NCBI GenBank assembly: GCA_028284225.1
Contig: JANQSD010000022.1
Coordinates: 1 to 64,000 of the forward strand
Direction of reading: 5' to 3'
DNA from: Arenicellales bacterium
GTDB taxonomy: Bacteria > Pseudomonadota > Gammaproteobacteria > Arenicellales > JAHEKD01
DNA length: 64,000 nucleotides
The position numbers were made by a program, and so were the translations under genes. Below, one piece after another: positions 2-19,520 of the stretch; position 1 is the stretch's first letter; each line of letters begins with the position of its first letter. The notes under the pieces were generated by a model that saw only the letters and a list, made by a program, of their open reading frames with translations, was not told the DNA's origin and did no database searches.

Positions 2-103
2 TATTCACTTGCTATTATCTATGCGCTGTTTATTAGCATAAGTAGCCTTTTTGTTATGAGGATACTATTACGATCTGATGTTAAACATGAATTTAGCGCC
101 TAA
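2..103 (+). CDS. C-terminal end of a small membrane protein (integron cassette-type gene), cut by window start
   Basis: An open frame runs from the window edge to a TAA at 101-103, giving 33 residues. About 22 hydrophobic residues form one probable transmembrane helix, followed by a short charged tail ending in EFSA. The stop codon lies inside the first core box of the attC-like site at 98-154, which is the normal arrangement for an integron gene cassette. The start is outside the window, so neither family nor length can be judged. This could be a chance open frame, but the overlap of its stop with the attC box argues for a real cassette gene. Confidence 0.45.
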   Translation, partial: YSLAIIYALFISISSLFVMRILLRSDVKHEFSA

Positions 104-154
104 CAAGACAGCCCAACCTACCGCTGACGCGTCGGTTGGCTTCAAACGTTAGGA
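98..154 (+). other. attC: attC-like recombination site (integron cassette 3' end)
   Basis: The left core box GCCTAAC (98-104, matches RYYYAAC) and the right core box GTTAGGA (148-154, one mismatch to GTTRRRY) are complementary over six bases. Inside them, AGCCCAACC and GGTTGGCT pair with one extra-helical base, and the remaining centre can form a short loop. The flanks TAACAA on the left and CAAACGTTAG on the right have the strand polarity of known attC sites such as that of aadA. Length is 57 bp. No second attC and no integrase gene were seen in the window, so this is the last or an isolated site of an array to the left. Confidence 0.75.
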
Positions 155-167
155 TGCACTAATAAAG

Positions 168-608
168 ATGCAGATACGCATAGCAGGGATAAATGACTAT
201 AAGCAGATACTGAATCTTATGCGTCAATTAAATCCGTTGGACCAGGAAGTAGCGGATGTCGAACTTAAAGTATTTGAAGAAATTATCGAGTCAACGTATC
301 TGAATTTAATTGTGGCTGAAGATGATGGCATTCTGCTAGGTTCATGCTACTTAAACATCATTCCAAATATGACTCGGGGTGGACGACCTTACGCGGTTAT
401 CGAAAATGTCATCACTGATGAAAAATATAGAAACCAGGGAATCGGAAAAGCCATGATGAACGAAGCGATCAATAAAGCCTGGCGTGCAGGCTGTTATAAA
501 ATCATGTTATTAACAGGTCGCAATAATGAGTCAACCCACAGGTTTTATCAACGTTGTGGATTCAGTGCTGATCAAAAGCAGGCATATGTAATGAGAGCGG
601 ATGGTTGA
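168..608 (+). CDS. GNAT family N-acetyltransferase
   Basis: Single-domain GNAT protein of 146 residues. The acetyl-CoA binding signature is visible as RNQGIGKAMM (motif A, about residues 88-97), followed by a helix and the ATHRFYQRCGF-like C-terminal motif (residues about 122-132) typical of the fold. Substrate unknown. The ATG lies 13 bp after the attC site, the usual spacing of a cassette gene, and GNAT proteins are common integron cargo. The gene overlaps the next start by 8 bp, so it heads a four-gene plus-strand run. No strong ribosome binding site is visible; translation may rely on coupling or on a site inside the attC flank. Confidence 0.85.
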   Translation: MQIRIAGINDYKQILNLMRQLNPLDQEVADVELKVFEEIIESTYLNLIVAEDDGILLGSCYLNIIPNMTRGGRPYAVIENVITDEKYRNQGIGKAMMNEAINKAWRAGCYKIMLLTGRNNESTHRFYQRCGFSADQKQAYVMRADG

Positions 609-1161
609 GGGTTTTGTGAAATACGAATCTCGAATTAAATCCTGGTTGCAAGGTGATGCGTATCGGATGCAAGCTTTACAAACGGCATTAGATTTAAACC
701 TCAGTGACTGGTGTATAGCCGCAGGCTTCGTTCGTAATTTGGTTTGGGATAAACAGCATGGATATGAGGCATTAACACCTTTAAATGATCTTGACTTAAT
801 TTACTTTGATGCTTTTAATTGCGAAGAAAAAACGGACAAGGAGTATGAATCTAAACTAAAAACTATGGACGGAAACCCTTGGTCTGTTAAAAATCAAGCC
901 AGAATGCATCAGCGAAACGACGATGCACCATATACATCAACAACCGACGCAATGAGTTATTGGGTTGAGGTAGAAACAGCAGTAGGTGCCAGATTAACAA
1001 ACAACAGTGAAATTGAAATTCTTGCACCGTTTAGTCTAGAGTCTCTATTTAATAACAGTATCACGATTAATTCTAAACGTAAAAAATTGTCAGACTTTAA
1101 TGAAAGAATCAAAAATAAAAACTGGTTAGTGAATTGGCCGAATCTGCAAGTAATTATTTAG
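601..1161 (+). CDS. Nucleotidyltransferase-like protein (NTP_transf_6/COG3575 type)
   Basis: A 186-residue protein. The motifs GFVRNLVWD (residues about 42-50) and NDLDLIYFD (about 62-70) match the active-site glycine region and acidic pair of the minimal nucleotidyltransferase family once called DUF925. A conserved YWVEVETAVGARL segment (about 121-133) and the LAPFSLESLF segment (about 142-151) are also typical. The substrate is not known for this family. The start codon overlaps the end of the upstream acetyltransferase gene and the stop lies 7 bp before the next gene, so the genes are probably co-transcribed. The gene is AT-rich compared with the atp region, consistent with acquired DNA. 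Confidence 0.7.
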   Translation: MVEGFVKYESRIKSWLQGDAYRMQALQTALDLNLSDWCIAAGFVRNLVWDKQHGYEALTPLNDLDLIYFDAFNCEEKTDKEYESKLKTMDGNPWSVKNQARMHQRNDDAPYTSTTDAMSYWVEVETAVGARLTNNSEIEILAPFSLESLFNNSITINSKRKKLSDFNERIKNKNWLVNWPNLQVII

Positions 1162-1168
1162 CAAGACC

Positions 1169-1738
1169 ATGAAATTCATCATCATTTTTGGGCCACCTGC
1201 TGTTGGTAAAATGACAGTAGGTTATGAATTAGCCAAGCTAACGGGGTTGAAGCTCTTTCATAATCATATGACGATTGATTTTGTGTCTCAATTTTTTGAA
1301 TGGGGCAAACCTGGGTTTGAATTAGTCGATGAATTCAGATTAAGAATCTTTGAGAAAATGGCACAAAGTGATCAAGCTGGTTTGATATTTACTTATGTTT
1401 GGGCGTTAGATGATGAAACAGATAATAATTTTGTTGAAAAAAGTCGAGCTATTTTTTCTCAGCAAGGAGCAAGTATTTATTTCGTTGAACTTTACGCGGG
1501 TTTAGACGAGAGGCTAAAAAGAAATAAAACCGAATTCCGTTTATCGCAGAAAAGACCCAAACGTGACCTCAAGCGATCAGAAGAATTATTGTTACGGGAT
1601 GAGTAGCATGTAATGAACACTAATGATGATTTCATTTATCCAGATAAGCATTTAAAGATCGATAATACGCATTTGTCGGCAAGTGAAGTTGCACAGCAAA
1701 TAATTACACATTTCAATATAGATAAAACAAATGCTTGA
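1169..1738 (+). pseudogene. AAA/shikimate kinase-like P-loop protein interrupted by an in-frame amber stop
   Basis: The first 145 codons encode a P-loop protein: GPPAVGKMTVG (residues 8-18) is the Walker A motif, and the LKLFHNHMTIDF segment is typical of a small kinase-like family. A TAG at 1604-1606 ends the frame after LLLRDE. The same frame then continues for 43 sense codons with segments such as MNTNDDF and KIDNTHLS, which is the expected C-terminal part of this family, to a TGA at 1736-1738. The TAG therefore looks like a point mutation, possibly from a glutamine or lysine codon, in an otherwise intact gene. The annotation spans the ancestral frame; the shortened protein would end at 1606. 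The ancestral frame overlaps the next gene by 8 bp. Confidence 0.75.
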
Positions 1739-2384
1739 ATGTGTAATTTTTGATCTGGATGGTTTGTTAGTCGATTCTGAACTACTACAATTTCGTTCCT
1801 ACCAACAGGCGTTTGCTCAAAACGGTCATTTCATAACAGAAAGCGATTGGCAGCGCTGGCTCAAGGTTAGTGTGGCTGTATATGGGTGGATTGAATTAGA
1901 CAAGTTAGATTTAGATCCAGAAAAAATCCGGGCGGACAAAAAAATTATTTACGATCAGATGATTGATGAAGAACTGACTATAAAGCCAGGTGCTGAGAAG
2001 TTGGTTAAAGAGTTGTCTAATTATGCGCGTCTTTGCGTGGCATCAGGTTCAAGAATCGAGTCAATAAAACGTTGTCTGGAAAAATTCAATTTAGATAACT
2101 ATTTTGAAGCGTTTTATTCAGCAGGTTCCGTTACACATTCCAAACCACATCCTGATGTATATTTGTATGCTTTGGAGCAAATGCGGGTTAATTGTGAACA
2201 GGCTATTGCAATTGAGGATTCTCCCCAGGGTTTGACATCGGCAAAAGCGGCGGGATTAAGATGTGTCGTTTGTCCTGATAGTAGCAATCCATTATCTGAG
2301 TCAGAATTCACTAAGGCAGACAAACTAGTTAACTCCTTGAAAGAGTTAAGCCATGCTGAACTTGTTAAAATGATCTCTGGTTAA
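1731..2384 (+). CDS. HAD superfamily IA hydrolase (beta-phosphoglucomutase/phosphatase-like)
   Basis: A 217-residue haloacid dehalogenase-type phosphatase. Motif I is FDLDGLLVDSE (residues 7-17) with the nucleophile and acid aspartates, motif II is the VASGS segment (about 103-107), motif III lysine is in HSKPHPDVY (about 135-143), and motif IV is IEDSPQG (about 161-167). The cap lies between motifs I and II, which is subfamily IA. Members act on sugar phosphates, glycolate phosphate or nucleotides; the substrate here cannot be told. It ends the four-gene run and starts inside the end of the P-loop gene. Confidence 0.85.
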   Translation: MLECVIFDLDGLLVDSELLQFRSYQQAFAQNGHFITESDWQRWLKVSVAVYGWIELDKLDLDPEKIRADKKIIYDQMIDEELTIKPGAEKLVKELSNYARLCVASGSRIESIKRCLEKFNLDNYFEAFYSAGSVTHSKPHPDVYLYALEQMRVNCEQAIAIEDSPQGLTSAKAAGLRCVVCPDSSNPLSESEFTKADKLVNSLKELSHAELVKMISG

Positions 2385-2862: not shown

Positions 2863-4140
2863 TTGGCAATCGGTTTGTCGGCAGCGGGATATTTATTCTG
2901 GATTGTCAAAGGTTCAGCGCAAGTTGATTTAATTCAACTGTTATCGGTGGGCGTATTAAGCAGCGCCGTCTTGTTTATGTTTTGGTTTTATTTAAACAAG
3001 ATCAATAGAACAATTACCTTCACTCAGTTAATCGGCGCAGCAGTTTTTTTGCGGCTATTGGCGATTATAGGCGATCCGATTTTAGAAGATGATTACTTCC
3101 GATATTTGCTGGATGGTTGCGTGTATTACCACTATGGCACGCCATACGGTATCAGCCCTGAATCGCTGTTCATTAATAATAATTTGCCGTCAATCTGCCA
3201 GGGTTTATTGGATAATGTTAATAATCCGGATTACCCAACAATCTACGCGCCGGTTTTGCAATACGTATTTTTATTGGCCCATATTATTTCACCAACCGAT
3301 ATTGATGTACTGCAAGTTATCAATGCATTGTTTGATCTAGGAATCATTCTAATTTTGACGCGTTGGGTAAGTTTAAACTGGGTCATGCTTTATGCCTGGC
3401 ATCCACTGGTTATTAAAGAGGCTGTTTTTACGGCTCATCCTGATGTCATCACTGTTTTTTTTATCCTTTTTGCCGGATGGTTGTTGTCACAAAAGCGCTA
3501 TACATTCACGGCTATCTGTCTAGCCATAGCACTGGCCAGCAAAATTTTTGCAGTGGTTCTGATACCGTTTATGTTGATAAAACTTAGTTGGCGCTATTGG
3601 CTGGTGTTCGTCATTACATTAATTGTTTTGTATATTCCATTTATTATTCAAACAAAAACAGACATCGCGGTGTTGGTTCAATTCGCTCAAAACTGGAGTT
3701 TCAACGCCAGCCTATTTTATTTATTTGACCATTATTTTAGTGATGACATTGCACGCTATGCATTAGCTTTTTTATTTGTGCTCGGCTGGCTAGTATTGTT
3801 TATTAATTACTTGTTCGGAAAAAGTAACCAAACACCGTTTTTTCGAGCGGACTTGGTTATTGCTTTGTTATTAGCAGTATCACCGGTCGTTAATGCCTGG
3901 TACATGCTTTGGTTATTGCCGTTTGCCTGTATATACCCGAGTCTGTGGGTCTGGGTGGCTAGTGTGAGTATGTGGTTCAGTTATATTATTGGTCTTCACC
4001 TTGAACAAAATGTAATCGCTGCTTATCAACAACCCTGGTGGGGTTGGGCGTTGGTGTATTTACCTATCATGGCTGCGATGGGTTGGCAATTCGTTCAAGC
4101 TTACATGGTAAGGGATAAGTTTGAGCACAGAACTAATTGA
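2863..4140 (+). CDS. Polytopic GT-C type membrane glycosyltransferase (mannosyltransferase-like)
   Basis: About 425 residues with ten or more hydrophobic segments. The conserved loop EDDYFRYLLDG (residues about 73-83) resembles the acidic motif in the first large loop of GT-C glycosyltransferases that use polyprenyl-phosphate sugars. NPDYPTIYAPVLQ and the AWHPLVIKE segment also fit that superfamily. The partner GT2 gene, which could make the lipid-linked donor, converges on it and overlaps its end by 8 bp. The start is uncertain: the TTG at 2863 has no ribosome binding site, the frame is open back to 2788, and no ATG is available there. Acceptor unknown. Confidence 0.65.
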   Translation: MAIGLSAAGYLFWIVKGSAQVDLIQLLSVGVLSSAVLFMFWFYLNKINRTITFTQLIGAAVFLRLLAIIGDPILEDDYFRYLLDGCVYYHYGTPYGISPESLFINNNLPSICQGLLDNVNNPDYPTIYAPVLQYVFLLAHIISPTDIDVLQVINALFDLGIILILTRWVSLNWVMLYAWHPLVIKEAVFTAHPDVITVFFILFAGWLLSQKRYTFTAICLAIALASKIFAVVLIPFMLIKLSWRYWLVFVITLIVLYIPFIIQTKTDIAVLVQFAQNWSFNASLFYLFDHYFSDDIARYALAFLFVLGWLVLFINYLFGKSNQTPFFRADLVIALLLAVSPVVNAWYMLWLLPFACIYPSLWVWVASVSMWFSYIIGLHLEQNVIAAYQQPWWGWALVYLPIMAAMGWQFVQAYMVRDKFEHRTN

Positions 4141-4828
4141 TATGAAACATTCGGCTGCGAAACGTCCAGATAAGAATTTTATAACCGGCTAATAATGAGC
4201 CCTTTATAGTACCGGAAATTTTCGACTTACCAATACGCGCCCGATAGCGCACCGGAATTTCTCGAATCTTTAACCCATGGTGCACAGCCTTTATTTGCAT
4301 TTCAATTGTCCAGCCGTAATCTTGATCCGACATATTGAGCTGTCTCAATTGCTTTGCAACAATGGCACGCATAGGGCCCAAATCGGTATAGTAAAAACCG
4401 ATAAATTGATGCATTAAGCGACAAACCAAATGGTTCCCAACGCGTTGTAGTCTGGTTAAAACAGGTTTTTGCAGGTCTGATTCATGCCGTGAGCCGACTA
4501 CGAACTCTGCATTATGCAGACAAATAGGTTGCAACACGTTGATGATATCTTCAGGATAATCACTGTAATCAGCATCCATAAAGGCGATGATATCGTAATT
4601 TTTGGCAGCTTTAATTCCGGTAAGACAGGCTGAGCCATAACCGCGGCGATGCTCGTTAACGACTCTGGCTCCCAGGTTTTGTGCGATTCGTGCAGTGTTA
4701 TCTGATGAACCATTATCAACAACAATAATCTGGTCGATTTGTGCCGGGATTTCTTTCAAAACATAAGCAATGGACTTTTCTTCATTCAGGGCAGGAATGA
4801 TGAGTGCAATGGTAAGACCGTTAATCAT
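4133..4828 (-). CDS. Family 2 glycosyltransferase (dolichol-phosphate mannosyltransferase-like)
   Basis: A 231-residue GT-A fold enzyme without membrane segments. The N-terminal IIPALNEEKSI (residues 10-20), VDNGSSDNT (about 37-45) and the metal-binding DADYSD (about 85-90) are the hallmarks of DPM1-like GT2 enzymes, which transfer a sugar from a nucleotide to a polyprenyl phosphate. It overlaps DUF547 upstream by 4 bp (ATGA), so the two form one operon, and it converges on the GT-C gene, its plausible user. No C-terminal GtrA-like membrane domain is present. Confidence 0.85.
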   Translation of the reverse strand: MINGLTIALIIPALNEEKSIAYVLKEIPAQIDQIIVVDNGSSDNTARIAQNLGARVVNEHRRGYGSACLTGIKAAKNYDIIAFMDADYSDYPEDIINVLQPICLHNAEFVVGSRHESDLQKPVLTRLQRVGNHLVCRLMHQFIGFYYTDLGPMRAIVAKQLRQLNMSDQDYGWTIEMQIKAVHHGLKIREIPVRYRARIGKSKISGTIKGSLLAGYKILIWTFRSRMFHIN

Positions 4829-9348: not shown

Positions 9349-9951
9349 ATGAAACGGGCACTAAATAACGCCGGTTACTTTTTTGACCAGCACCAGATAA
9401 ATCAACTGTGCCAATACCAAACGGAATTATTTCGCTGGAATCAGAAGATTAATTTGACCTCTATTGATGAAGAACACTTCATCAGTCATCATTTGCTGGA
9501 TAGTTTATCGGTTGCTACAGAACTAAAAGGTGGTCATGTGCTTGATCTGGGCACTGGGGGAGGTTTACCCGGTGTACCGTTAGCGGTTACGCTGCTTGAA
9601 AAATCATTCACCTTGTTAGATGCACGTAATAAGAAAATTCAATTTCTTGATTTTGTCAAAAACAAGCTTGAACTGGTCAATATTCATCCCATACACCAGC
9701 GTGCCGAAGCACACCAGCCAGTGTCGTTGTATGATACGGTTGTTACAAGGGCATTTTCCTCGTTAACAGAAATTTACCGTCTGGCCAAACCGTTAATCAA
9801 TAAATCCGGTCGAATCATCGCTATGAAAGGACGCTATCCAGCGCAAGAATTAACCGACTTAGAACACATCGGTGTGAACTATGAGGTAAAATCGGTCGAT
9901 GTGTCGGGTCTCGATGCTGAGCGACACTTGATCATAATCGATAACGAATAG
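9349..9951 (+). CDS. rsmG: 16S rRNA (guanine527-N7)-methyltransferase RsmG
   Basis: A 200-residue protein, close to the 207 of E. coli RsmG (GidB). Conserved blocks are FRWNQKINLTSI (about 29-40), HHLLDSLSV (about 47-55), the SAM motif LDLGTGGGLPGVPLA (about 65-79) and VVTRAFSSL (about 131-139). It methylates G527 of 16S rRNA in the 530 loop. It precedes parA-parB as in many proteobacteria, but mnmG, its usual upstream neighbour, is absent. The stop lies 5 bp before the parA ATG, so it is the first gene of the rsmG-parA-parB operon. Confidence 0.95.
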   Translation: MKRALNNAGYFFDQHQINQLCQYQTELFRWNQKINLTSIDEEHFISHHLLDSLSVATELKGGHVLDLGTGGGLPGVPLAVTLLEKSFTLLDARNKKIQFLDFVKNKLELVNIHPIHQRAEAHQPVSLYDTVVTRAFSSLTEIYRLAKPLINKSGRIIAMKGRYPAQELTDLEHIGVNYEVKSVDVSGLDAERHLIIIDNE

Positions 9952-9956
9952 ATGTA

Positions 9957-11039
9957 ATGCCGATAGCGAAAATTATTGCAGTCACCAATCAAAAGGGCGG
10001 TGTGGGTAAAACAACGACCTGCATCAACCTGTGTGCAGCATTGGTCAATATCGGTCGCAAAGTCATGATTATTGATCTTGATCCACAGGGTAATGCGACC
10101 GTGGGTTGCGGGGTGATGAAAAATGAATTTGAGGCGGGTACCTATGATGTTTTATTGGGCGAAGCCGATATTGGTGAGGCTATCGAGAAAACTGAAACAG
10201 GTATTGATATCTTGGCTGCCAACGATGATTTGTCCGGCGCACAAATCGAAATGCTGCAGCTGCCGGACCGGGAAGTCAGGCTCAAAGCGATACTGATGCA
10301 AGTCGAGAATAATTACGATTATGTTTTTATCGATTGTCCGCCCTCATTAAATATTCTGACCATTAATGCTCTGGCAGCCGCCAAATCCGTGTTAATCCCG
10401 ATTCAGTGTGAATATTATGCTCTGGAAGGCTTGAGTGCACTTGTAAGCACCATCGATAAAATAAAATATACACTCAATCCGGGACTTAAAATCGAGGGGT
10501 TACTGCGAACCATGTATGATGGCCGTAATACCTTGTCTATTGAGGTTTCTGAGCAACTTATCGAGTATTTCCCAGGTAAAGTCTATAAAACATTTATCCC
10601 GCGCAATGTGCGAGTGGCAGAAGCGCCGGGTTACGGTACTTCTGTGATCGAATACGACAAAACCTCCAAGGGTGCTACAGCTTATCTAAATTTGGCCGGG
10701 GAGTTTTTGATTCGCCAGAACCAACCCGATGAAGATGAAGAACAAGCAAGCGAGGAAGATGACACCACAGTTGATATTGAGGAACAACCTGATTTTAGTG
10801 GTGCATTAACTACGGCACAGGTAAGCAACGAAACTCAAACGCCGGAGACTGAACCTGAAAAAACCGAATTACCTCTAGAAAATTCAACCATGCGAGCGCA
10901 TTCTGAACCTGAGCAACATAAAGGTGACAGCACCAGCGAACGCCAGGATCAGGAAAATAAGCAGCCAGACTCACAAACACAGGGTGAATCACCAGAACCA
11001 CTGGACCAGCCGAAACCGTTAACCAATACATCAATATGA
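9957..11039 (+). CDS. parA: Chromosome partitioning ATPase ParA (Soj) with long acidic C-terminal tail
   Basis: The deviant Walker A motif KGGVGKTTTCIN is near residues 11-22, DLDPQGNAT near 40 and FIDCPPSLN near 120, as in Soj-type ParA. The ATPase domain ends near residue 257. A further 100 or so residues rich in Glu, Asp, Gln, Pro, Ser and Thr follow, with no predicted fold; ordinary chromosomal ParA is about 255-265 residues. ParA binds DNA non-specifically and moves ParB-parS complexes. The gene overlaps parB by 4 bp (ATGA). The tail reads as continuous frame into the parB start, so it is not an annotation artefact at the start side. Confidence 0.95.
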   Translation: MPIAKIIAVTNQKGGVGKTTTCINLCAALVNIGRKVMIIDLDPQGNATVGCGVMKNEFEAGTYDVLLGEADIGEAIEKTETGIDILAANDDLSGAQIEMLQLPDREVRLKAILMQVENNYDYVFIDCPPSLNILTINALAAAKSVLIPIQCEYYALEGLSALVSTIDKIKYTLNPGLKIEGLLRTMYDGRNTLSIEVSEQLIEYFPGKVYKTFIPRNVRVAEAPGYGTSVIEYDKTSKGATAYLNLAGEFLIRQNQPDEDEEQASEEDDTTVDIEEQPDFSGALTTAQVSNETQTPETEPEKTELPLENSTMRAHSEPEQHKGDSTSERQDQENKQPDSQTQGESPEPLDQPKPLTNTSI

Positions 11040-11944
11040 ATGCAAAAAAGAATCGATTAGGCCGAGGATTAGATGCGCTACTGGGCGAAGTGCGTAAAGA
11101 ACCAACGGCGAGTGAAAACGGCACCGCCACTTCAGTTGCCAGTGAAGATTCAACAGCTATTGTAGAGAAATCACCCTACAAAACTATCCCGGTTGATTTA
11201 CTCGATACCGGCAGTTATCAGCCCCGTACTCACATGGATGAGCAAGCATTAGAAGAGTTGGCCGGTTCAATTAAATCTGAGGGATTGATTCAGCCTATCC
11301 TGGTGCGCTCAAAACCGGGCGGTCGCTATGAGATTCTGGCTGGGCACAGGCGCTGGCGTGCCAGTCAGCGTGCCGGACTACAAGCAATTCCGGCGGTGGT
11401 CAAGGAAGTGTCTGACCAGGCAGCCTTGGCTGTAGCGTTGATTGAAAATATTCAACGCGAAGACCTGAACCCAATCGAAGAGGCAATGGGTTTAAAGCGG
11501 CTAATGGATGAGTTTGGGGCAACGCATGAACAAATCGCCACTCAAATCGGCCGCTCGCGTACGGCAGTGACCAATTTATTGAGATTGCTAAGTTTGAATC
11601 CTCAGGTTCGTGATCATCTCGAATCAGGTGAACTGGATATGGGTCATGCCCGGGCCCTATTATCGTTGTCTGATAATGAACAGATTTCATTATCGAAAAT
11701 GATTATTTCGCGTGGACTAACGGTGCGCGATACTGAGAAAAAAGTGAGGCAAATGCAAACGGCTGGCTCAAAAAGCCGAATCTCTCATCTGACCAAAGAT
11801 GCAGATGTATTGCGCCTGGAATCTGAGCTTTCCGATAAGCTGGCAGCTAAAGTCAGCATTCAGCAAGGCCGTAAAAAAGGCAAATTAGTGATCGAATATC
11901 ACAGTTTGGATGAATTGGATGGCATCCTCAAACGTATAAGTTAA
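11036..11944 (+). CDS. parB: Chromosome partitioning protein ParB (Spo0J)
   Basis: A 302-residue CTP-dependent DNA clamp. The N-terminal KKNRLGRGLDALLGE is the ParA-stimulating peptide. TGSYQPRT, the CTP-binding GRYEILAGHRRWRA (about residues 96-109) and ENIQREDLNPIEEA follow, then a helix-turn-helix around TATQIGRSRTAVTNLLRLL that reads parS, and a C-terminal dimer domain. It nucleates on parS and spreads. It is coupled to parA by a 4-bp overlap. I saw no perfect parS palindrome in the window by eye. Confidence 0.95.
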   Translation: MNAKKNRLGRGLDALLGEVRKEPTASENGTATSVASEDSTAIVEKSPYKTIPVDLLDTGSYQPRTHMDEQALEELAGSIKSEGLIQPILVRSKPGGRYEILAGHRRWRASQRAGLQAIPAVVKEVSDQAALAVALIENIQREDLNPIEEAMGLKRLMDEFGATHEQIATQIGRSRTAVTNLLRLLSLNPQVRDHLESGELDMGHARALLSLSDNEQISLSKMIISRGLTVRDTEKKVRQMQTAGSKSRISHLTKDADVLRLESELSDKLAAKVSIQQGRKKGKLVIEYHSLDELDGILKRIS

Positions 11945-11957
11945 TCAGGGTCGGTTG

Positions 11958-12179
11958 TTATAGACGCTTTTTAAGATGGTTAACGATGATTTGAAGCAGG
12001 ATCATAACTGAAAGAAATAGTGCTATTAAGCAACTGAAAACCCCTAAAGGAAGAAAAAAACTTTCCTGAAGCACGCCGTCTTTATCCACGTAACCATAAA
12101 ATTTGTTTTCTAAAAGCAGACTGGTTATTCCAATGAAAAAGAAAAAACAAACAATAAATAATTTGACTTTAAGCCTCAA
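11958..12179 (-). CDS. Small DUF3955-like membrane protein
   Basis: A 73-residue protein with two hydrophobic segments separated by ENKFYGYVDKDGVLQESFFLPLG, a loop that matches the DUF3955 family as I remember it. The function is unknown. The start is a TTG with no visible ribosome binding site; no in-frame ATG is near. It lies on the opposite strand between parB and atpI and faces the end of parB. A perfect inverted repeat sits just upstream (12190-12221). Confidence 0.6.
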   Translation of the reverse strand: MRLKVKLFIVCFFFFIGITSLLLENKFYGYVDKDGVLQESFFLPLGVFSCLIALFLSVMILLQIIVNHLKKRL

Positions 12180-12189
12180 AAGCAGCGCT

Positions 12190-12221
12190 AATTGTTATAA
12201 AACCGGAAGTTTATAACAATT
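12190..12221. repeat. Perfect 12-bp inverted repeat, 8-nt spacer
   Basis: AATTGTTATAAA at 12190-12201 and its exact complement at 12210-12221 flank ACCGGAAG. It lies 11 bp upstream of the DUF3955 start. It could be an operator for that gene, or a weak hairpin on the plus strand, but no T-tract characteristic of a terminator follows. Confidence 0.6.
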
Positions 12222-12516
12222 ATTTTGAATTTCGCCTTAACAGGGCAGCAATAGCTTTGCAGATGTCGCAACTGGCCTGAACACAGCTCGAATGTAAAAA
12301 GATTAACGCTGAAATGCAAAAACAGCAGGAAAGTATCGATTCATCGCTGGGTTTATTAAAAACTTATCAGCAAGCCCAAGTGCGTCACTAGCGCTAGCTT
12401 GGCTAAAAAATTACGCTCTTTTAAATAAAATCATAAAAACAAATGTCCATACCCGGTCTTTGTAAAGGCTATTTCTTCCTGTAAACCACAATTATATTGA
12501 CTATACCCGCAATAGC

Positions 12517-12545
12517 TTGACCCCGTGCATTGTCGCTAATATACT
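12517..12545 (+). promoter_or_regulatory. Sigma-70 promoter of the atp operon
   Basis: TTGACC (12517-12522) and TATACT (12540-12545) are separated by 17 bp, an excellent match to the sigma-70 consensus. The predicted transcript starts near 12552, about 60 bp before the atpI ATG. The gap 12180-12612 otherwise holds only the inverted repeat at 12190 and a degenerate coil-like reading frame (about 12255-12391) that I do not call. Confidence 0.7.
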
Positions 12546-12612
12546 TCGGTTTCGCTGGAATACCTCAGGGTATAAAGGCTGAAAAAGATTACTTTTAATC
12601 GGAACCAGTTCA

Positions 12613-12984
12613 ATGACACGAGATTCTGACCGGCTGCATATTGCAGTACGGGTCATTTTGTTACAGGTTCTGGTCGCTATAGCGGTTGCGGCAGTTGTGT
12701 TTGCCATAAAAGGATGGGTAGCGGGATATTCTATTATGCTAGGAGCCTTAACCAGCATTATTCCCACGGCAGCATCCTCAATCATAGCGTTTAAGTTGAA
12801 CGATCAGGATGCCAATATGATCCTGGTGGCTTTTTACTCAGGTGCGATAATCAAGTATCTGCTGGCAGCGGCCTTGATTGGTTTGATTATTGTAGTAGTA
12901 AAACCGCTGGAACCGGTAATGGTTCTGGTGGGATTTATAGCAACACAGTTGGCAATGCTATTTGCCCCGTTGCTGAACAAGTAG
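12613..12984 (+). CDS. atpI: ATP synthase accessory protein I (AtpI)
   Basis: A 123-residue protein with four predicted membrane helices; the central GYSIMLGALTSIIPTAASS segment is typical of AtpI. The family helps assemble the c-ring and has been linked to Mg/Ca uptake; it is not essential for ATP synthesis. It is the first gene of atpIBEFHAGDC, with atpB starting 23 bp downstream. Confidence 0.85.
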   Translation: MTRDSDRLHIAVRVILLQVLVAIAVAAVVFAIKGWVAGYSIMLGALTSIIPTAASSIIAFKLNDQDANMILVAFYSGAIIKYLLAAALIGLIIVVVKPLEPVMVLVGFIATQLAMLFAPLLNK

Positions 12985-13007
12985 GACTTATATACAAGAG
13001 AATTTAA

Positions 13008-13880
<873 letters not shown>

Positions 13881-13913
13881 GGTAACTGTAACATTTAACT
13901 TTTTAACATTTAA

Positions 13914-14165
<252 letters not shown>

Positions 14166-14203
14166 TCAATATTGTTCGTACTGACATTTAACGGAGAAAC
14201 GAG

Positions 14204-14674
14204 ATGAATATTAATCTCACTCTAATTGGGCAGATGATCGTCTTTGTGATTTTCGTCTGGTTTACCAAAAAATATGTCTGGACACCAATCATCAATGCAT
14301 TAGCAGAACGTCGTGCCAAAATCGCTGATGGTCTGGCTGCCGCTGAAAAAGGTCAGCAAGCGCAGGCTCTGGGCGAAGAACAGGCACAACAAGTCATTGC
14401 CGAAGCCAAAACTCAAGCTGCTGAGATTTTAAGCAAAGCGGAAAAGCGCGGTGGTGAAATTGTTGATGAAGCCAAAGATGGAGCCAAAGCCGAGGGTGAA
14501 CGTATTCTGGCTGCAGCTCGTGGTGAAATCGACAAAGAGCTGAATATGGCCAAGGAACAGCTTCGTGGTCAAGTAGCAGCATTGTCGGTTGAAGGCGCTT
14601 CAAAAATCCTTGCACGTGAGGTCGATGCCTCAGTGCATGCCGACATGCTTGATGATTTGGCAGCCAAACTATAG
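14204..14674 (+). CDS. atpF: ATP synthase F0 subunit b
   Basis: 156 residues, the same length as E. coli b. One N-terminal membrane helix (residues about 5-25) is followed by KKYVWTPI and a long Ala/Glu/Lys/Gln-rich coiled coil, the peripheral stalk that holds F1 against rotation. A GGAG ribosome binding site precedes the ATG. Only one b-type gene is present, so the stalk is a b2 homodimer rather than b/b-prime. Confidence 0.96.
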
Positions 14675-14686
14675 GGATTGAGCTGA

Positions 14687-15223
14687 ATGTCCGAGATAAG
14701 CACCATAGCACGACCTTATGCCAAAGCGCTGTTTGATCTGGCGTCAGAAGGACAGGGTTTTGATCGTTGGTCTGATACATTGGCGTTGTTGAGTAACATC
14801 ATCGCAGATGAAACCATGCAATCACTGGTTGAAGACCCGTTTGCAGACAAATCCAAGCTGTCGGAACTGATCAAATCGGTTTGTGCAGACAAGATAGATG
14901 AACAAGGCTCTAACTTGATAGACACCTTGATCGAAAACGGTCGACTCAATACTATCGGCGCCATAGCTTCACGTTATGAAGAACTCAGGGCCGAAGCTGA
15001 ATCGATGGTTGAAGCAGATGTTGAATCTGCATTGCCATTGGATGAGGCTCAACTGGAGAAGCTCAGCACATCGCTGGAAAAACATTTTGGTAAAAAAGTA
15101 AAACTTAATCCTAGTGTTAACGAGGATTTAATGGGTGGCATTTTGATCCGAGCCGGTGACACAGTCATCGACGGATCAGTACGCACCAAACTGGAAAAAT
15201 TGGCAAGCACAATCCGTGCTTGA
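14687..15223 (+). CDS. atpH: ATP synthase F1 subunit delta
   Basis: 178 residues against 177 in E. coli. The N-terminal IARPYAKALFDLA motif binds the top of the alpha subunits, and the C-terminal MGGILIRAGDTVIDGSVRTKL segment contacts the b-dimer. Delta links the peripheral stalk to F1. It starts 12 bp after atpF, within the operon. Confidence 0.96.
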   Translation: MSEISTIARPYAKALFDLASEGQGFDRWSDTLALLSNIIADETMQSLVEDPFADKSKLSELIKSVCADKIDEQGSNLIDTLIENGRLNTIGAIASRYEELRAEAESMVEADVESALPLDEAQLEKLSTSLEKHFGKKVKLNPSVNEDLMGGILIRAGDTVIDGSVRTKLEKLASTIRA

Positions 15224-15246
15224 TTTAGAGGATAACGAATATGTCC

Positions 15247-16788
15247 ATGCAATTAAGCCCTTCAGAAATCAGTGAACTGATTAAACAACGCATTGCCGGC
15301 TTTGATACGGCAGCGGAATCTCGCAATGAAGGAACGGTCGTCAGCCTGACGGACGGTATCACCCGAATCCATGGTCTGGCCGATGCGCTACAAGGCGAGA
15401 TGTTGGAATTCCCAAACGATACCTTTGGTCTGGCTCTTAACCTGGAACAAGATTCAGTCGGTGCGGTAATCCTGGGTGATTATGAGCACATCACTGAAGG
15501 CGACAAGGTTAAATGTACCGGTCGTATTCTTGAGGTGCCAGTCGGTGAAGGTTTATTAGGCCGTGTTGTTGATGCATTGGGTAATCCGATCGACGGTAAA
15601 GGTCCGATTACATCACAAGGTACGTCTCCAATCGAGAAAGTGGCTCCGGGTGTTATCACGCGTCAAAGTGTAGACCAACCTGTGCAAACAGGCCTGAAGT
15701 CGATTGACTCAATGGTGCCAATTGGCCGTGGTCAGCGTGAGTTGATCATCGGTGACCGCCAAACAGGTAAAACTGCGGTAGCTATTGATGCGATCATCAA
15801 TCAGAAAGGCACGGGTATCAAATGTATCTACGTCGCGGTAGGTCAAAAAGCCTCTTCAATTGCAGGCGTTGTACGCAAGCTTGAAGAACACGATGCCATG
15901 GAGCACACCATTGTTGTCGCAGCTTCAGCAGCAGAAAGTGCGGCCATGCAATACATTGCTCCCTATTCGGGTTGTTCAATGGGTGAATATTTCCGTGATA
16001 AAGGTGAAGATGCATTAATCATTTATGATGATTTGACCAAGCAGGCCTGGGCCTACCGTCAGGTTTCATTGTTGTTAAGACGCCCTCCAGGCCGTGAAGC
16101 GTATCCTGGTGATGTTTTCTACTTGCATTCTCGCTTGTTGGAGCGCTCTTCGCGAGTCAACGAGGATTTCGTCAGCAAAGCAACAGATGGTGCTGTAACA
16201 GGTAAAACAGGTTCACTAACAGCATTACCGATCATTGAAACCCAAGCCGGTGACGTATCAGCTTTCGTACCTACCAACGTAATCTCGATTACCGACGGGC
16301 AGATATTCCTGGAGTCGGACTTGTTTAATGCGGGTATCCGTCCGGCGATCAATGCAGGCTTGTCCGTATCACGTGTAGGTGGTGCGGCACAAACCAAAAT
16401 CGTCAAGAAACTTGGTGGTGGTGTTCGTTTAGCGCTAGCGCAGTATCGCGAATTGGCGGCTTTCTCACAGTTCGCTTCGGATTTGGACGAGGCAACACGA
16501 AAGCAGTTAGAGCGTGGCCAGCGTGTTACTGAATTGATGAAACAAAAGCAGTATAGCCCAATGTCAGTGGCGGAAATGTCATTGTCGCTGTTTGCGGCCA
16601 ATGAAGGTTTCCTGGATGACGTTGACGTTAACAAAGTGGTTGACTGTGAAGCGGCCATGCAAGCCTATGTCAAATCAAATCACGGCGGCTTGCTGGATAA
16701 AATTAACGAATCGTTTGACTACAATGATGAAATCGAAGCCGGTTTAAGAGAAGCGGTCGAAGACTTTAAGACCAACGGTTCCTGGTAA
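15247..16788 (+). CDS. atpA: ATP synthase F1 subunit alpha
   Basis: 513 residues from the ATG at 15247, exactly the E. coli length; another ATG two codons earlier (15241) is possible and lies at a better distance from the AGAGG site. Walker A GDRQTGKT is near residue 170, Walker B LIIYDDL near 265, and the arginine finger region VSRVGGAAQ near 375. Alpha carries the non-catalytic nucleotide sites and supplies the finger to beta. Confidence 0.97.
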
Positions 16789-16802
16789 GCGGATAATCAA
16801 TC

Positions 16803-17669
16803 ATGGCAGTCGGAAAAGAAATTCGGGTTAAGATCAAGAGTATCCAGAATACTCAAAAGATCACCAAGGCCATGGAAATGGTGGCGGCCAGCAAAATGCG
16901 CCGCGCCCAGGATCGTATGTATGCTGCACGGCCATATGCGGAAAAAATCCTCAACGTCGTGCGTCACATGGCTGAAGCCAATGCAGAGTACAAACATCCG
17001 TTTTTGATCGAGCGTGAGCAAGTCAAACGAGTGGGTTACATTGTAGTGACTTCCGATCGCGGTCTTTGTGGTGGTTTGAATGTAAATTTATTCCGTACTT
17101 TGCTGCCAGAACTTAAAGCTTGGCACGATCAAAACGTTGAAATTGATGTTTGTGCTATCGGCAATAAGGGTCTGGCGTTTTTCAAGCGTTTCGGTGCCAA
17201 TATTGTTTCACAAGCAACTCATATTGGTGATGCGCCATCGATAAATGATTTGATCGGTTCAATTAAAATCATGTTGGATGCCTATGAAGAAGGCGAGATT
17301 GACAAGATTTATGTGGTGTATAACGACTTTATCAACACGATGACGCAAAAGCCAACCGTCGAGCAGTTGGTCCCAGCACATGTAGAAGAGCCGGACGAAG
17401 CTTTGGCAGGGCATTGGGATTATATTTATGAGCCTGATGCTAAACCGGTGATGGACGCGCTGTTGACACGTTATTTAGAGGCTGAAGTTTATAAAGCTGT
17501 GGTTGAAAACATTGCCAGCGAACAAGCATCGCGAATGGTGGCCATGAAAGCAGCAACCGATAACGCAGGTAATTTAATTGACGAATTGCAGCTGGTCTAT
17601 AACAAAGCCAGACAAGCAGCAATTACCCAGGAAATTTCTGAAATCGTCGGCGGTGCGGCGGCGGTTTAG
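16803..17669 (+). CDS. atpG: ATP synthase F1 subunit gamma
   Basis: 288 residues against 287 in E. coli. The N-terminal [20 protein letters not shown] helix and the C-terminal [18 protein letters not shown] helix form the central coiled coil rotating inside alpha3beta3. [10 protein letters not shown] is the conserved Rossmann-like middle. No cyanobacterial or chloroplast-type redox insertion is present. It starts 14 bp after atpA. Confidence 0.97.
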
Positions 17670-17699
17670 GACTAATATATAAGTTTAAGAGGAAACTAG

Positions 17700-19082
<1,383 letters not shown>

Positions 19083-19097
19083 CAACAGGTTAGTTAA

Positions 19098-19520
19098 ATG
19101 GCAGCAACATTTCATGTCGACATAGTCAGCGCTGAAAGCGAAATTTGGTCCGGCACAGCTGGTGCTTTATTCGCTATTGGTGAAATGGGAGAACTCGGTA
19201 TTTATCCGCGTCACACACCATTATTAACCAAACTCAATCCTGGCGAAGTGCGTGTGCAAAAGGAAGACGGTAGCGAAGAAGAATTTTATATCTCTGGTGG
19301 TTTGCTGGAAGTACAACCCCATCACGTTACAGTCCTCTCCGATACTGCTGTTCGTGCCGAAGATTTGGATGAAGCAGCAGCTTTGGAAGCTCAGAAAAAA
19401 GCCGAACAAGCCATGAAAGACACAAAATCAGATATGGACTTTGCCAAAGCTAAAGCTGAACTCATTGATGCAGCTGCGCAGTTACAAACTATCCAGAAGT
19501 TACGTAAGCGTCGAAAATAA
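19098..19520 (+). CDS. atpC: ATP synthase F1 subunit epsilon
   Basis: 140 residues. The N-terminal beta-sandwich contains [19 protein letters not shown]-like sequence ([20 protein letters not shown] starts near residue 25), and the C-terminal part is a two-helix region that can inhibit hydrolysis. It ends in a basic cluster RKRRK. It is the last gene of the operon; an intrinsic terminator follows 20 bp after the stop. Confidence 0.96.

Follow-up and report, generated by a model that had tools for sequence, protein, structure and literature searches.

An attC site beside the replication origin of an Arenicellales bacterium probably closes a cassette array headed by an attI copy without an integrase gene

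A contig of an Arenicellales bacterium begins with what looks like a single, isolated integron recombination site, which raises the question of whether a cassette array ends there and, if so, from where its integrase comes. The window, i.e. the whole stretch of 64,000 nucleotides that we analyzed, corresponds to positions 1-64000 of contig C8 (310,357 bp). Since its first base is the contig end, the 20 kb to its left cannot be scanned on the contig. At this edge the window contains:

2-103, forward strand: 3' end of the last cassette ORF, truncated at the contig end; its translation is hydrophobic, with 33 codons plus stop
98-154, forward strand: attC, with R'' at 98-104, L'' at 111-118, L' at 134-140 and R' at 148-154

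The core boxes R'' (GCCTAAC) and R' (GTTAGGA) match the RYYYAAC and GTTRRRY types, the final R' base (A, not a pyrimidine) being off GTTRRRY, and six of the seven R' bases pair with R''. R'' also contains the TAA stop (101-103) of the truncated ORF. The L'' box (GCC-C-AACC) pairs with L' (GGTTGGC), leaving C114 unpaired and extra-helical by inspection. Folded as DNA, the bottom strand forms an imperfect hairpin (-11.6 kcal/mol, z -2.7), and recombination would be expected after G148. The first-pass annotation had described an attC-like site with two core boxes, an extra-helical base and a stop in the first box, and sequence, fold and model search all bear this out. A covariance model (R3), trained on 14 further attCs of this genome and two of a relative but without the window site, was run over the window as the annotation had advised. 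Its best match is 98-154, scoring 44.2 bits; E is 2.2e-9 in the unfiltered search of the entire window and 1.5e-7 genome-wide, and the runner-up in the window reaches 16.1 bits. The same search detects about 20 more attCs of this family in the genome. A sibling in the array of contig C7 (C7rc 928-980, on the reverse complement) is 91% identical to the window site over 53 bp, and further siblings lie at C7rc 12903-12959 (77%) and L026 13205-13261.

A second model (R2), made only from attCs of other families in relatives, mostly of a longer type, missed the window site (E 2.6). It also missed a true sibling attC from the same genome (E 1.4), so its failure here reflects the type of attC, and we dropped it as an independent detector, too specific to long sites. 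Model R1 includes the window site and was excluded as evidence. Rfam gave no match within the window. One model match, on contig C16, was discarded as chance because it sits in a coding gene. Separately, positions 1-5000 of C16 (L091) carry an IS3-like transposase beside a patatin-like phospholipase and genes that by eye resemble an anti-phage defence cluster.

Judged by its boxes, fold and model score, site 98-154 is a genuine integron gene-cassette attC, that of the last cassette at an array end. That it is a chance palindrome, as the E of 2.6 from R2 might suggest, is hardly credible, being refuted by the almost identical sites that this genome has in its cassette arrays and by the R3 E value of 2.2e-9 with the site outside training.

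The annotation had also proposed that the window starts at the tail of an integron array, a view it would have given up given a poor score and no further attC or integrase within about 50 kb. We found 44.2 bits, some 20 additional attCs of the same family and, in the integrase search that it had suggested, one intact intI about 307 kb away on the same contig, all of which support the proposal. This gene, at the right end of C8, encodes 332 aa and scores 419 bits with TIGR02249 (cut-off 265). Its product can be aligned over its full length with 2a3v, the solved integron integrase of Vibrio cholerae, and keeps the catalytic motifs (R, H-R, H and Y). No second integron integrase above the cut-off occurs anywhere in the assembly.

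Next to intI on C8 come attI and four complete cassettes in one direction (attCs at C8:308439-310269), encoding a DUF1353 protein and three unknowns; a fifth is cut by the contig end. In cassettes 1 and 2, an 11-bp stretch at the start is complementary to the R'' of the same cassette, and such pairing is a mark of cassette circles. The third attC has both boxes damaged by eye, yet it matches the model at 32 bits. By its predicted parts, the right end of C8 is a complete integron. The C7 contig (reverse-complemented), with about 30 co-directional genes over 19 kb and 15 model-supported attCs, probably continues this integron, together forming what we call array B. Along C7 we detected no gradient of attC decay toward the distal end (Spearman -0.19, p 0.49); distal junctions were more often without attC, but with p 0.18. 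Synteny around intI in relatives provided nothing useful.

The leader between intI and the first cassette has two other copies in the genome, on C7 and C2. The C7 copy (C7rc 4607-4792; 86% identical over 188 bp) lies mid-array; from its sequence context, it may end a cassette of the delta-attI type or head a second array that has merged with this one. This copy (L074) sits behind five co-directional genes that lack attCs. The C2 copy (C2:127763-127805) is 88% identical over a 43-bp core (genome-wide E 9e-9) and ends at the crossover point between ACTG and TTA, where a cassette start follows, within 100 bp of the contig end. Upstream of the core identity is only about 50%; the rest of this leader aligns with both other copies better than all 1000 shuffles. 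All three copies retain a hairpin ahead of the attI core, its stem bases changed but still pairing:

L026 11705-11745: leader hairpin
C7rc 4630-4665: leader hairpin
L108 4638-4680: leader hairpin

Beside the C2 copy we found no trace of intI, and a search of this leader for a sigma-70-like promoter was negative. Elsewhere in the genome, two short arrays without intI (C1, about 120546-121838; C2, 106644-105812, minus strand) share a second leader of about 177 bp (79% identical, E 1.5e-36), also ending between ACTG and TTA. The idea that this second leader had diverged from the first was rejected, their alignment not exceeding shuffles.

The position of the window attC in the chromosome is indicated by a gene cluster downstream:

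9349-19520, forward strand: rsmG (gidB)-parA-parB-atp cluster, read from sequence and homology to relatives

This cluster normally follows mnmG adjoining oriC, and mnmG was located 0.1-6 kb upstream of rsmG in 8 of 12 relatives. In this assembly gyrB, dnaN, dnaA, rnpA, yidC, mnmE and mnmG (named from sequence) are carried by C2. The order toward its right end is dnaN and dnaA, then rnpA, yidC, mnmE and, further along, mnmG, a DUF547 gene at 126703-127503, the leader copy, the cassette start and the contig end. GC skew on C2 changes sign near 115 kb, becoming positive in the interval between dnaA and rnpA in which oriC would be expected, and is positive along nearly all of C8. From the mnmG-rsmG order in relatives and the skew, the right end of C2 should lead into the left end of C8, and we infer that the best joining runs from C2 through an array to the window attC. 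This joining would place the array in the mnmG-rsmG interval, at a distance of about 12 kb (plus the array itself) from oriC. No contig spans the two ends, and the stretch between them includes one or more unassembled cassette boundaries. At the far side of C2, positions 1-35000 have a G+C content of 0.32-0.38 compared with about 0.43 elsewhere and include a recombinase-like stretch (558-701); this region is a possible genomic island.

We consider it probable that attC 98-154 closes an array (array A) between mnmG and rsmG that is headed by the C2 attI copy, has no intI of its own and is served by IntI in trans. Array A would start at the C2 leader copy, with its hairpin and its core ending between ACTG and TTA. 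The sole IntI would be made at array B, which lies some 307 kb onward on the same replichore; it would bind the folded bottom strands of attCs and cut behind the G of GTT. Such an enzyme, acting in trans, could release cassettes from array A and integrate new ones at the attI copy on C2. The assembled evidence for array A consists of one attC at the left end of C8 and, provided that C2 and C8 are correctly joined, another cassette start at the C2 end; the assembled flanks (C2 right end and window) contain no intI. The assembly itself shows the attC, the single intI, the three leader copies and the gene order at the contig ends; we infer both the connection of C2 to C8 via an unassembled array and the action of IntI there.

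The alternative that fares best, to which we give a real but clearly minor share of belief, is that array A is a dead relict of a once complete integron, with intI lost and the leader and attC disused. The divergence of the C2 leader to about 50% outside the core, the A in place of a pyrimidine at the end of the window R' and the stop codon in a kinase gene behind the attC (see below) are consistent with decay. However, an attI core kept at 88% over 43 bp within a flanking leader at 50% is the pattern expected of a constrained site, and the window attC matches the attC family of the genome well.

A different alternative concerns the genes behind the attC:

168-608, forward strand: GNAT acetyltransferase
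601-1161, forward strand: PF06042 nucleotidyltransferase (NTP_transf_6)
1169-1738, forward strand: P-loop/shikimate-kinase-like gene, with an in-frame TAG at 1604-1606, 44 codons ahead of the next stop
1731-2384, forward strand: HAD-family hydrolase, last gene of the acquired string, its start overlapping the kinase stop by 8 bp
2424-2447, no strand assigned: palindrome GCATAACAACTATAGTGTTAATGC, following the HAD gene, at the expected position of an attC for the string
2863-4140, forward strand: membrane protein (glycosyltransferase-like), first well-conserved chromosomal gene past the array, in 33 of the 109 genomes of the order

By homology and distribution, the stretch 168-2384 is acquired DNA at the distal array end, without attCs of its own. 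The closest relative of the GNAT gene in the order, 60% identical, is an attC-flanked cassette in genome G045 (L048 21-449, attC from 452). The nucleotidyltransferase was found in none of the other genomes searched (109 genomes of the order), and the kinase, whose closest relatives (about 60% identical) are in Bacillota and Chloroflexota, is matched once, and weakly, among the other genomes of this set; the next gene, at 2863-4140, is widespread. We propose that these are foreign genes stuck at the distal end, led by a former cassette GNAT gene minus its attC; with that attC gone, the genes of the string would no longer excise.

The first-pass annotation had described four mutually overlapping genes, which is incorrect: overlaps (8 bp each) occur only at the GNAT/nucleotidyltransferase and kinase/HAD junctions, and nucleotidyltransferase and kinase are separated by 7 bp. 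It was right that no attC lies between them, as neither R2 nor R3 has a match within or behind the string, including the palindrome at 2424-2447. Its choice between a chromosomal operon and a multi-gene cassette does not stand as put, since the string is neither ancestral chromosome nor a demonstrated cassette. As an operon conserved elsewhere, GNAT-nucleotidyltransferase-kinase-HAD was rejected, with 0 of 80 kinase loci showing it. The palindrome resembles an attC reduced to its R boxes, a likeness that may be chance.

It is unlikely that 168-2384 constitutes a single large multi-gene cassette that is still mobile. The string does begin directly behind the R' box, its genes are in tight translational coupling, its ancestry is foreign, and the palindrome could, as a weak suggestion from its sequence, be a collapsed attC remnant; but attC models match neither between nor behind its genes, and the string is not conserved elsewhere.

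Another alternative is an array A without any attI. One or two cassettes may have been dropped by IntI at a chance chromosomal site, a scenario that we regard as quite unlikely. It would agree with the short arrays elsewhere in the genome (C1, 121 kb; C2, 106 kb), with published attG insertions and with the single attC visible at the window. If C2 and C8 are joined correctly, however, an attI copy heads the array, which then holds at least two cassettes, since the first cassette on C2 starts GTTATGTGT and this does not pair with the window R''.

We also find it very doubtful that the two ends of C8 are halves of one cassette, either in a circular C8 or with the window attC at the tail of the intI-bearing array. 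The terminal cassette at the right end starts GTTAGGCGC, which pairs over 9 bp with the window R'' (GCGCCTAAC), but pairing of this type occurs in 39 of 1123 unrelated cassette pairs of a relative's array, so that a match is expected by chance at about 3.5%. Another cassette of this genome, on C1, also starts GTTAGGCGC. The oriC-proximal rsmG-parAB-atp genes and the nearly uniform skew mark C8 as a piece of a replichore rather than a circle, and mnmG and the leader on C2 suit the left end of C8 better. GC skew, gene content and reading frame all led us to reject a circle closed through one split cassette, a direct join being out of frame.

Off-target insertion or loss of intI is the usual explanation for the conserved positions of CALINs (clusters of attC sites lacking an integron integrase), which are common. 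An array A headed by the C2 attI copy and served in trans would resemble CALINs in its attC cassettes, in having no local intI and in the presence of an intact intI at another place in the genome; it differs in probably starting at its own attI copy, and has one assembled attC against the formal threshold of two. The published routes to CALINs are off-target insertion, intI loss or rearrangement (PMC8618304), and in Xanthomonas they occupy conserved places (PMC12444791). For a CALIN that has an attI of its own, one precedent has been published, from a Shewanella prophage, likewise with one intI and two attI copies, the second heading an array without integrase. There both copies are in one prophage, whereas here they are chromosomal, about 300 kb apart and diverged outside the core, one of them beside oriC.

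Sedentary chromosomal integrons of the Vibrio and Xanthomonas type also have a chromosomal intI, attI and cassette array, with the recombinogenic bottom strands of attCs on the leading-strand template (PMC11023631). Analogously, both arrays here run with the leading strand according to GC skew. In contrast to those integrons, array DNA is here distributed among several loci, and additional leaders occur without intI. Delta-attI-type cassettes (PMC12901181) similarly place an attI within an array, as at C7rc 4607-4792, but those belong to mobile integrons and the present case is chromosomal, the C7 copy being a putative cassette end only. In the literature searched we found no description of a diverged set of chromosomal leader copies with one beside oriC.

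On the same sequence evidence it is conceivable, somewhat short of an even chance, that this genome has a distributed chromosomal integron, in which one integrase serves several docking platforms in one chromosome. Candidate platforms are the leaders at intI, in the C7 array and between mnmG and rsmG, and the second leader type at C1:120.7 kb and C2:106.5 kb. If so, cassettes could shuffle between loci of differing gene dosage. If function is not confirmed, the finding is that of a well-documented relict integron at oriC. The combination of one integrase with several leader copies suggests a testable alternative for the origin of CALINs, namely secondary attI platforms served in trans; if this is true, attI searches restricted to the neighbourhood of intI overlook such platforms.
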